Part shown: one piece after another, positions 3,850-38,975 of the stretch
Layout: every line of letters starts with the position of its first letter
How positions within the stretch are numbered: the stretch's first letter is position 1
Source: a virus
DNA length: 42,373 bases
Virus record (IMG/VR): IMGVR_UViG_3300036804_000043
Coordinates: 1-42,373 of that record
Reading direction: 5' to 3' (one strand)
The notes under the pieces: generated by a model
The model's input: only the letters and a program-made list of their open reading frames with translations
Database searches by the model: none
What the model was told of the DNA's origin: nothing
Translations under genes and position numbers: made by a program

Positions 3850-4182
3850 TCAGGCGAGGGGCCGGGCATGGGCAACACGCGCGTACATCACGAGCCACCG
3901 CAGGAACAGCAGCGCGACAACCGCGCCAAGGTCACTCCGGAACACCGCGAGGATGGACGCACGCACAGTCGACGCAACCGCGAGCATCCGAGCACGGAGG
4001 GCGGTACGCAACAGGATCACGGTAGTGCGGGCCACAGCGGGGGCGCGCAGGTTCAGTTTGAACCCTGCGGCGAGCCCGAGCGTCGAGCGGAACACGTCCT
4101 TAGACGCGGCCACGGAGGCACGCAGGGCCCGGTAAACGCTACCCAACGCGGTGTTTCGACTGCGGCGAGTCATCGCGTTCAT
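3850..4182 (-). CDS. Small basic protein with a C-terminal membrane segment (110 aa)
   Basis: The ATG of MNAMTRRSRNTALGSVYRAL follows a strong GGAGGGAGG site. The protein is Arg- and Ala-rich and helical, with a hydrophobic stretch near the end (LGAVVALLFLRWLVMYARVA) that could be one transmembrane helix. Three TGTTGCG repeats lie directly upstream, so it may have its own regulation. It stands alone between an intergenic gap and the terminator at 3711. No family is recognised. Codon use fits its neighbours. Confidence 0.6.
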   Translation of the reverse strand: MNAMTRRSRNTALGSVYRALRASVAASKDVFRSTLGLAAGFKLNLRAPAVARTTVILLRTALRARMLAVASTVRASILAVFRSDLGAVVALLFLRWLVMYARVAHARPLA

Positions 4183-6760: not shown

Positions 6761-6801
6761 CAAAAGGGCGAGCAGGACCGGAATTCCAGTCCTGCTCGCC
6801 C
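6761..6801 (-). terminator. Terminator built on dispersed palindrome, copy 4
   Basis: This is the longest copy of the GAATTC-centred palindrome: the arms reach GGGCGAGCAGGA and TCCTGCTCGCCC. On the minus strand it is followed by four T residues. It lies 16 bp past the primase-helicase stop, so it very likely works as a terminator as well as carrying the shared motif. Confidence 0.8.
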
Positions 6802-6816
6802 GTATCGAGCCGCTAC

Positions 6817-9747: not shown

Positions 9748-9935
9748 TCCGTACCCTCCTCGTTCACCCAATGCACGTACGCACCGCGCATCGTGGCCAC
9801 TCCAGCGGCCAACCACACACGGTCAAAGTCCCTACGCCTGCGGGCAGATGGACGGAACACGAGAACGTCACCCGTACCCATCTGCCGAATGTCACCGAGG
9901 GCCGGGGCCTGGTCGGCGTTCACAACACGAATCAC
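9744..9935 (-). CDS. Small hypothetical protein (63 aa)
   Basis: A GTG overlapping the upstream stop (GTGA) gives VIRVVNADQAPALGDIRQMG. The sequence GDVLVFRPSARRRRDFDRVW then AAGVATMRGAYVHWVNEEGTE suggests a small beta fold with a basic loop. Five genes from 10255 to 9285 overlap end to start. No family is recognised. A GTG 15 nt earlier in the same frame is a less likely start. Confidence 0.65.
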   Translation of the reverse strand: MIRVVNADQAPALGDIRQMGTGDVLVFRPSARRRRDFDRVWLAAGVATMRGAYVHWVNEEGTE

Positions 9936-10255
9936 TTGACGTGCCCCCACGACGTGCCCTTGACGATGTGTCGAGCCGCGCGGGTCGAGATCCCGAATGC
10001 AGCGGCCAGCCGAGCCAGGTTCGCGCCAGCCTCGGCCGCATGCCGGATAGCTCGAACCTTCTCCTCGTTCATCTTGGCCGCGCCGTTGCCGGTACCGGTC
10101 GACGGATGCAGCGACACACCGAAGCCACCGCCGGGCGGAGACTGGACGGAAACGCCCGCCTCACGGTCGAAGTCGTCGGCGATGGCGGCCAGTTCGGCGT
10201 ACGAGACGCCCGGGGCGCGGAACGGGTAGCGCATGATCTCTTCGGCGGTACGCAT
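9932..10255 (-). CDS. Helix-turn-helix protein (107 aa)
   Basis: The C-terminal half, MNEEKVRAIRHAAEAGANLA then RLAAAFGISTRAARHIVKG, has the pattern of a helix-turn-helix of the type found in HNH-nuclease DNA-binding tails and small resolvase-like regulators. The N-terminal part (AEEIMRYPFRAPGVSYAELA) is separate, and a glycine-rich link (PPGGGFGVSLHPSTGTGNG) joins them. It could be a transcriptional regulator, possibly a repressor. The ATG is behind TAGGAGAGAAC. It is first in a five-gene coupled operon ending with the resolvase. Confidence 0.65.
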   Translation of the reverse strand: MRTAEEIMRYPFRAPGVSYAELAAIADDFDREAGVSVQSPPGGGFGVSLHPSTGTGNGAAKMNEEKVRAIRHAAEAGANLARLAAAFGISTRAARHIVKGTSWGHVK

Positions 10256-36396: not shown

Positions 36397-36401
36397 GTAA
36401 G

Positions 36402-36470
36402 TGGGGTGCCTGGATTCGAACCAGGTTCGGGGCCCGTGTGAGGGGCCCCTACGTCCAACGTCCACCCCCA
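36402..36470 (-). tRNA. tRNA-like element, possibly tRNA-Val (CAC), with a short D arm
   Basis: On the minus strand the T arm (CCTGG TTCGAAT CCAGG) is perfect and six of seven acceptor pairs form (GGGGGTG with CACCCCA). The anticodon loop CTCACAC would give CAC. The D arm has only ACGT-TGG-ACGT and lacks the usual T8-A9 and AGCTC. It may be a degenerate tRNA or an unusual one. A dedicated tRNA search would be needed to decide. Confidence 0.4.
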
Positions 36471-36589
36471 GCGGGTAGCGACCCCGCCTTGACCCCGGCC
36501 CGGGGATCAACCGGGGCGGGGAGTTGTGGCCTCCCGCCCGGTGCGTTCCGGCCCATACACCGATGGGCCACGCACGGGGCGGGATGCAG

Positions 36590-36662
36590 CTGATCTAGCA
36601 GGGATCGAACCTGCGACACGCGGGTTAACGGCCCGCCGCTCTGCCATCTGAGCTATAGATCA
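36590..36662 (-). tRNA. tRNA-Asn (GTT)
   Basis: All four stems form perfectly on the minus strand: acceptor TGATCTA/TAGATCA, D stem GCTC/GAGC, anticodon stem GCGGG/CCCGC and T arm GCAGG TTCGATC CCTGC. The loop CCGTTAA gives anticodon GTT. Position 33 is C in place of the nearly invariant T. CCA is not encoded. The discriminator base would be G. The sequence 36663-37104 to its right holds a repeat and motif but no convincing gene. Confidence 0.85.
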
Positions 36663-36999: not shown

Positions 37000-37083
37000 G
37001 AAGAAAGAAAACGTCTTCCCGTACCTCCTTTCCTGATACGCACATAAGGAAGAAGGAACGGGAAGACGTTTTTCGTCTTCTCT
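37000..37083. repeat. 84-bp hairpin repeat, copy B
   Basis: This copy has the same length and loop (CTGATACGCACATAAG) as 12095-12178, with five changes. The outer stem here is longer (CCCGT with ACGGG), while the inner one has a mismatch. It lies past the integrase terminator and, as at copy A, just before an 18-bp motif. Confidence 0.85.
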
Positions 37084-37180: not shown

Positions 37181-38830
37181 TCACGCTGCGGGTTTGTGCT
37201 TCCTCGGCCGATTCGGCGACTCCCCGGCCCAGTTGATCGTTACGCGCTCTTCGCCGTTGAACCGCTGCCCCTCGAACGCGGCTTTGGACACCCACACCTC
37301 ATCAATCGCGAGACCGATCAACGTGCGCCGCATCGGCGTACCAGCCGCGTCCCACGCCTCCGGGGCCTGTAGCGGGTCCATCAAGAACGACACGTCGACC
37401 GCCGCCGTCCCCCGCATCTTGTCCAGCACCGCCCGGCATGCCGTCACCAGAGCGTTCGCGTCACGCAGCGCGGGAGCGAAATACTCCTCTGACGGACCGT
37501 CGTAGAGACCCGCCTTACGGTCTGCCCAAACCCGCTGAAGTGCCTTCTCCGCGTTCACGAGCGACCGCCGGGCCTCTTCCTCCTCCTCCGTCTCCTGCGG
37601 CTTCTCAGCGGCCTTCCAGCGCCGCGCAGCCTCCACAACGAGCGGTTCGCCCGGCTCGGAACTGTTGAGTCGGATTTTCCACCGCTCCGCCACGTACTTC
37701 TCAATGACATTCCGCTGAACGTAGGCCGGGGCCGGGCAGAACGCCCCCATGTGATGCCGTGAGCACTGGTACCCCCGTCCGGCCGTCACCATGGCCCCTT
37801 CGCAGCCCTCACAACGTATGCGCGTGGACAGTTCGTGGGGTTCGCCCTCCGGGCCCGTGCGGACCCCGGTAACGGCAACCTGTGCCGCTAGTTGCTTCTT
37901 CTCCTCGACCAGCGGCGGCCCTGTCATGATGCTGACCTTCTGGCCGGTCTCGTCCCGGTACGCCAGCCGCTTACGGCCGCCCTCCTGGCGTCCGGTCACC
38001 TGCCATCCGGAGTACGCCGCGTTCCACAGCATGTCGCGGACCGTGCCCCATGCCCAAGTGCCCCCGGACGGCGACGGTATGGCCTCCGCGTCGAGCTGTC
38101 GCACCGTGGCCCGGATGCTTAGGCCCTTGGTTTCGATCAGGTCGAACACGTGCCACGCGATCTCGCTTGTCGTGCGCCCCTGCGGCTCGTTCGCGGGCGC
38201 GTGGCTCACCCGCAATTTGCGTTCGTCGTACGGGTCGCCCTCCTCGTCGAACTTCTCGACTAGGACGACCTCAAGACCGTACGGGGCACGGGCGTTGACC
38301 CACTCCCCGTTTGAGCGTTGGTGCTCCTTGGTGTTGCGCACGCGCTCCGACAGTCGCTCGGTCTCTTCGCGGGCGTCCTCGGCCCGGCGGATGAGTTCGC
38401 CACGGTCGCGCGGGTTGGTGCTGTCCAGCTCCCACCGGCCCGCGTTCTCGTCCCACCCGAACAGCAGCCGTCGCGGCTTCTCGTCGCCAGGCTCGATGAT
38501 GCGCAGGATTGCGCCCGCCCCCCGGCGGTCCCACCGGTCGAGCCGGAAACACCACAGTGCGCCGACCTCTCCGGCCTCCAGCGCGGCCAATGCCTTGTCT
38601 TGGTCATCGCGCCGCCCCTTGGTCCGGAAGCGGGACGCGGACCCAACCTCTTTCCACACATGACGCACTGTCAGATTGAGTAGCGCGGCCACCCTGCGGC
38701 CGGTCGCCTCCTGCGCGGCGATCGAGAGTTCTTTCTTCCCGCCCCGGGATGCCTTCGACTTGACCGCCCGCGACTTCCGGCAAAAGAGGTCAATCAAGGT
38801 CGCCGGGTCCGGCCCGTTTTCGTTGCTCAT
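37181..38830 (-). CDS. int: Large serine integrase (549 aa)
   Basis: The protein integrates the phage genome by serine recombination. The catalytic domain has Ser20 in LFCRKSR, followed by VRHVWKEVGSASRF and the arginine segment LWCFRLDRWDRRG. A recombinase domain (NARAPYGLEVVLV; WGTVRDMLWNAAYSGWQVTG) follows. The zinc ribbon CEGCEGAMVTAGRGYQC then FCP leads to a C-terminal coiled-coil stretch (KAAEKPQETEEEEEARRSLV). The ATG (MSNENGPDPATLIDLFCRKS) lies 29 bp from a 46-bp dyad that is a candidate attP. The gp3-like protein at 10354-11088 may be its directionality factor. Confidence 0.95.
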   Translation of the reverse strand: MSNENGPDPATLIDLFCRKSRAVKSKASRGGKKELSIAAQEATGRRVAALLNLTVRHVWKEVGSASRFRTKGRRDDQDKALAALEAGEVGALWCFRLDRWDRRGAGAILRIIEPGDEKPRRLLFGWDENAGRWELDSTNPRDRGELIRRAEDAREETERLSERVRNTKEHQRSNGEWVNARAPYGLEVVLVEKFDEEGDPYDERKLRVSHAPANEPQGRTTSEIAWHVFDLIETKGLSIRATVRQLDAEAIPSPSGGTWAWGTVRDMLWNAAYSGWQVTGRQEGGRKRLAYRDETGQKVSIMTGPPLVEEKKQLAAQVAVTGVRTGPEGEPHELSTRIRCEGCEGAMVTAGRGYQCSRHHMGAFCPAPAYVQRNVIEKYVAERWKIRLNSSEPGEPLVVEAARRWKAAEKPQETEEEEEARRSLVNAEKALQRVWADRKAGLYDGPSEEYFAPALRDANALVTACRAVLDKMRGTAAVDVSFLMDPLQAPEAWDAAGTPMRRTLIGLAIDEVWVSKAAFEGQRFNGEERVTINWAGESPNRPRKHKPAA

Positions 38831-38858
38831 TCATCCATCATGGCACGTCAACGGGTAC

Positions 38859-38904
38859 GGGTCGATGTGTGCATCACTCCTGCGAGAGTTGCACACATCG
38901 ACCC
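38859..38904. other. Candidate attP: 46-bp dyad upstream of int
   Basis: Perfect 15-bp arms GGGTCGATGTGTGCA and TGCACACATCGACCC flank a 16-bp centre, TCACTCCTGCGAGAGT, that is itself partly symmetric (CTC and GAG). The two central bases are TG, a non-palindromic pair as needed for a directed serine integrase crossover. phiC31 attP has a similar size and lies at the same place. An operator for int is the main alternative. Confidence 0.6.
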
Positions 38905-38943: not shown

Positions 38944-38975
38944 AAAAGAGCCCCGCTCGGCGAACCGAACGGGGC
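38944..38975 (-). terminator. Rho-independent terminator
   Basis: On the minus strand a GCCCCGTTCGG/CCGAGCGGGGC stem with a TTCG loop is followed by TCTTTT. It lies 8 bp past the small membrane gene at 38983, so the upstream operon stops before attP and int. Confidence 0.85.

Follow-up and report, generated by a model that had tools for sequence, protein, structure and literature searches.

The 46-bp dyad upstream of int in the viral record analysed here (42,373 bases, hereafter the window) is almost certainly the attP of the adjacent serine integrase, which is of the type found in Streptomyces phage phiK38-1. We favour this reading because the attachment sites of related integrases support it, apart from the symmetry of the dyad itself. 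The integrase and its attP are a further example of a well-known site class, and the phage is of the Streptomyces type. The features of the module are collected in Table 1.

Table 1. Coordinates of the integrase module and associated features in the window
Feature	Position	Strand	Basis
attP (candidate), 46-bp dyad; int-strand reading GGGTCGATGTGTGCAACTCTCG-CA-GGAGTGATGCACACATCGACCC	38859..38904	-	symmetry, relatives' sites, matrix
Predicted crossover dinucleotide, TG on + / CA on int strand	38881..38882	.	dyad centre; TG in phiK38-1; CA junctions in L010/L015
Left half-site motif GTGTGCAAC, -14 to -6 from core (int orientation)	38888..38896	-	identical in L014 attP
int-proximal perfect 15-bp outer arm TGCACACATCGACCC	38859..38873	-	pairing scan
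int-distal perfect 15-bp outer arm GGGTCGATGTGTGCA	38890..38904	-	pairing scan
Stretch TGACGTGCCATGAT between attP and int, likely -10 of int promoter	38837..38850	-	recurrence of TGACGTGNNANNAT
int, large serine recombinase, 549 aa (Resolvase, Recombinase)	37181..38830	-	domain matches
Terminator-like hairpin, far side of attP, as in phiK38-1	38950..38975	-	hairpin scan
Gp3-like recombination directionality factor (RDF), 244 aa	10354..11088	-	Pfam PF18897, 2.4e-16

The dyad reads GGGTCGATGTGTGCATCACTCCTGCGAGAGTTGCACACATCGACCC, that is GGGTCGATGTGTGCA-TCACTCCTGCGAGAGT-TGCACACATCGACCC. A preliminary description of this DNA had placed it at exactly 38859-38904 with perfectly complementary outer arms of 15 bp each, and both points were confirmed; the spacer between the arms is 16 bp. 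Around the central TG, 19 of 22 positions per side are paired, with mismatches at +/-1, 5 and 7 from the centre. A scan of the whole record ranked the dyad first among all 46-bp dyads, followed by a terminator-like hairpin at 6761 (18/22). Its regularity exceeds chance, as had been proposed: the best dyad in each of 60 first-order Markov shuffles of the window scored 14-18 and never 19, and none of the 60 contained two perfect 15-bp arms separated by 0-20 bases. Known serine integrase attP sites are about 45-50 bp long, with inverted repeats around a spacer of about 20 bp (PMC5311408), and the earlier comparison of the dyad with them in length holds. The adjacency to int was likewise correct, although the gap of 29 bp given for it is off by one at most, as we count 28 bp (38831-38858) between the dyad and the int start codon.

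The closest annotated integrase with a mapped site is that of phiK38-1 (AB251919; 55% by tblastn, 57% in the alignment), and the integrases of the window, of L008 and of phiK38-1 form one clade in the integrase tree (support 100/99). The int product carries the PHROGs label integrase, and its Zn_ribbon match scored just under the curated cut-off. A four-row alignment search found related integrases at 16 loci, L009 and L015 representing one and the same prophage. Scans with single-protein patterns returned no relatives from either viral or genome contigs, and no phage record matched the int region at near identity. According to its GenBank annotation, phiK38-1 has attP at 443-482 and int at 505, with 22 bases between them. 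The site is described there as two imperfect palindromes separated by a 2-base TG spacer, with the crossover in CCTGGGAGCG, a stretch common to the attB in SAV1570/SCO1148. Aligned on their centres and read in the direction of int, the two sites are AACTCTC-GCAG-GAGTGATG (window) and AACTCTC-CTGG-GAGCGTTG (phiK38-1). Both phages have attP just upstream of int, the inner half-site letters AACTCTC....GAG.G.TG around the same centre, a TG/CA core and terminators on the far side of attP. They differ in the outer arms, which are unrelated (GGGTCGATG in the window, ACGCAAGTC in phiK38-1), in the number of pairs (19/22 against 16/22) and in the core, which in int orientation is CA in the window and TG in phiK38-1.

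Further sites came from L015, L017 and L018, Streptomyces elements whose integrases are related; for these three we rebuilt attP from attL and attR and checked each rebuild against empty sites in other Streptomyces genomes. L015 is a prophage of Streptomyces sp. ATexAB-D23. Upstream of its int, host DNA extends as far as GTGTACCGCTCCCAG and phage DNA lies beyond; the host part matches the same gene, encoding an ABC transporter, in other Streptomyces and ends at the identical base, and the reciprocal junction is present at the opposite end of the prophage. From the two junctions attP was rebuilt as GTAAACGTACAACGCTCC-CA-GTAGCGATGCGCATTTGC; the phiK38-1 crossover stretch is the reverse complement of the attB core, CGCTCCCAGG. 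The left junction of L010 is the same as that of L015, and no attR was found at the start of the L010 record. Both elements occupy the attB of the ABC-transporter gene, whose core phiK38-1 also uses, and both have a CA core in int orientation like the window, to whose integrase theirs are 56% (L015) and 52% (L010) identical. The attP of L015 is less symmetric than that of the window (13/22); it and its attB have CGCTCCCAG in common, and the window has CTCTCGCAG there. For L017 and L018 the rebuild started from other host genes and gave the cores TC and TT, the dinucleotide being chosen in each as the dyad centre within the shared stretch. The L008 record begins at the presumed core, and the partner site is absent from its end. 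Taken with the annotated attP of phiK38-1, the three rebuilt sites lie in the same place as the dyad and have half-site letters in common with it, which supports the earlier reading of the dyad as attP. The TG centre proposed with it is supported by the TG of phiK38-1 and by the equivalent CA of L010, L015, L012 and L011, which is TG when read on the opposite strand. As side observations, attL and attR of the Streptomyces sp. AC1-42W element are only about 5 kb apart (L017 about 9942 to L061 about 3697), so that it is either a small element or a prophage with a deletion, retaining its integrase, and L011 has an intact-looking attP around 3900-4000, well inside the viral record and not at its end (int at 42237-43844 of 58048).

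The spacing between core and int is also a family trait. The core lies 50 bases before the int start in the window, 51 in L010, 49 in L015, 51 in L012, 49 in L014, 50 in both L016 and L017 and 52 in L018; phiK38-1 has 50 when counted from its second ATG and 41 from the annotated one. Eight relatives thus fall at 49-52 bases (phiK38-1 from the second ATG), L011 with 42 being the exception. A symmetric matrix built from the attP sites of ten relatives, window excluded, ranked the dyad first in the 42 kb (17.8 against 6.0 for the next site). Six of these sites were our own dyad-based calls (Sycamore, Shaeky, L013, L011, L012, L014), which makes the matrix partly symmetry-selected; the other four were mapped (phiK38-1) or rebuilt from junctions (L015, L017, L018). 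Since one of 60 shuffles reached 18.9 and so exceeded the dyad, a matrix of the seven nearest relatives is the better test: there the dyad scored 19.3, the next site 10.0 and the best of 60 shuffles 14.5. By integrase clade, core distance and half-site letters, the module is of the phiK38-1 type.

These comparisons also bear on the idea that attP lies elsewhere, for instance in the 36.6-37.1 kb region close to the tRNA genes or in the hairpin that follows int, to which we assign a next to negligible probability. A long inverted repeat is present at 37000-37080 and tRNA genes begin at 36401 and 36589, but the region holds no top matrix match, all relatives checked have their site upstream of int, and the repeat has the 19-nt loop and T-rich tail of a terminator after int. 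With 31-nt arms (84%) and its tail in the int direction, it sits between the int stop and the tRNA genes and is probably the int terminator. The two phage tRNA genes downstream of int are Val-CAC (36401-36470) and Asn-GTT (36589-36662); phages Sycamore and Shaeky carry larger tRNA arrays at the same place.

The stretch between attP and int is conserved: L008, L010, L014 and L015 all have TGACGTGNNANNAT 6-7 bases ahead of the int start codon, with the variants TGACCTG in phiK38-1 and L012 and TGACGTG alone in L016/L017. It looks like the -10 region of a leaderless int transcript beginning just past attP. A dyad upstream of int and near a probable int promoter could in principle be a repressor operator or an autoregulatory site of int, and long dyads are typical of repressor sites. 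We nevertheless regard an operator in place of a recombination site as very unlikely: phage operators usually recur, whereas the full arm TCGATGTGTGCA occurs once only in the record, and the same place is the annotated attP in phiK38-1 and carries the junctions in the three rebuilt elements. The two roles are compatible, as integrase bound at attP could still affect the promoter.

The dyad might also act in RNA, as a transcription terminator or as a hairpin in the int leader, and its RNA folds much more stably than shuffled sequences do (-35.4 against -13.9 kcal/mol; z -8.4), with a mildly T-rich tail, CTTGTTGT, on the + strand. Any strong dyad folds, however; the fold is a consequence of the dyad and does not separate the readings. 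Neither strand has an uninterrupted T run, no + strand gene appears to require a terminator here, and a separate terminator-like hairpin lies at 38950-38975 (found with a scan whose loop limit of 8 would miss the attP dyad). On the int strand the conserved TGACGTGNNANNAT lies beyond the dyad, so transcription of int probably begins past the dyad, and we consider an RNA role extremely improbable. Terminator-like hairpins are also found elsewhere in the window: the motif CAGGACCGGAA has eleven copies on both strands (at 209, 755, 4382, 6773, 8219, 14486, 14518, 17708, 41119, 41449 and 42193), nine of which extend to CAGGACCGGAATTCC. At least some copies lie inside intergenic terminator-like hairpins, and 6761-6806 is the second-best dyad of the record.

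The preliminary description had likened the placement of the dyad to that of the phiC31 site, and the likeness is real: in phiC31 (L006: attP core 1042-1080, int at 1120) attP also lies just upstream of a large serine integrase gene, and the RDF family is Gp3-like. The phiC31 integrase, however, has 25.5% identity to that of the window over 72%, and its attP letters are unrelated. The phiC31 attP core is TT. The nearest model for the integrase and its attP is phiK38-1, not phiC31. In phiJoe, attP is an imperfect inverted repeat of up to 50 bp located 18 bp upstream of int, crossover is predicted at the central dinucleotide, and the core is GG (PMC5311408). The small RDF gene of phiJoe lies beside int (PMC5311408), whereas the Gp3-like RDF gene of the window lies elsewhere. 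The product of the latter is 65-67% identical to proteins of phages Shaeky (annotated as RDF) and Sycamore, whose integrases are also related to that of the window.

The window thus holds the dyad in its place beside int, half-site letters that match the attP sites of related integrases, and genes for an integrase and an RDF. By analogy with known serine integrases, two integrase subunits would bind the two inverted half-sites of attP, and the loaded attP would pair with an integrase-loaded attB. Cleavage of all four strands would follow at the two central bases, TG on the + strand and CA on the int strand, and the half-sites would rotate and rejoin to give attL and attR. The Gp3-like RDF would switch the integrase to excision.

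No lysogen with the window integrase was found in the viral and genome collections scanned; some of these searches may have excluded entries for the same genome or one very near to it. The crossover bases and attB are accordingly predictions only. The best integrases in 393 Streptomyces genomes had 49-58% identity to that of the window. A search of these genomes for prophage junctions containing either half-site, as suggested earlier, did not bear fruit: the half-site pattern gave only two one-mismatch matches, which we rejected as junctions for lack of attP/attB context and take as chance. The paired outer-arm pattern had 0 matches in viral contigs, and the arms occurred in no other viral record searched.

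Because the integrase groups with that of phiK38-1, whose attB core is also used by L010 and L015, we think it rather likely that attB here is the same site in the ABC-transporter gene. Against this prediction, L018 pairs with L015 in the integrase tree (82/91) yet uses another host gene, so that the choice of attB changes within the family. A further point against it is the shortness of the stretch that this attP would have in common with the predicted attB (CTC-CAGG). Among the papers searched, none names SCO1148 together with attB. The junction is predicted at the CA within CCGCTCCCAGG of the ABC-transporter gene, in the L010/L015 polarity, since the core of the window, like theirs, reads CA in the int direction.

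Relative to int, the attB core appears to have opposite polarity in phiK38-1 (CCTGGGAGCG; L003 443-482) and in L010 and L015 (CGCTCCCAGG; about 3940-3955 and about 9935-9955, respectively). The attP of the window is more symmetric (19/22) than those of its relatives (12-17). With symmetry so nearly perfect, little besides the central dinucleotide is left to set direction, and it is conceivable, if somewhat doubtful, that a change of core alone flips the polarity of the att sites. Were this true, sister phages would insert in opposite directions at one site. The outer arms of the window are unlike those of phiK38-1 and attB is probably the same, a combination that could separate how the integrase reads attP from how it reads attB. 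With this site the phiK38-1 family gains an attP set from which half-site recognition can be read, and the new integrase/attP pair, together with its predicted attB and predicted RDF, may serve for Streptomyces vectors and recombination tools.
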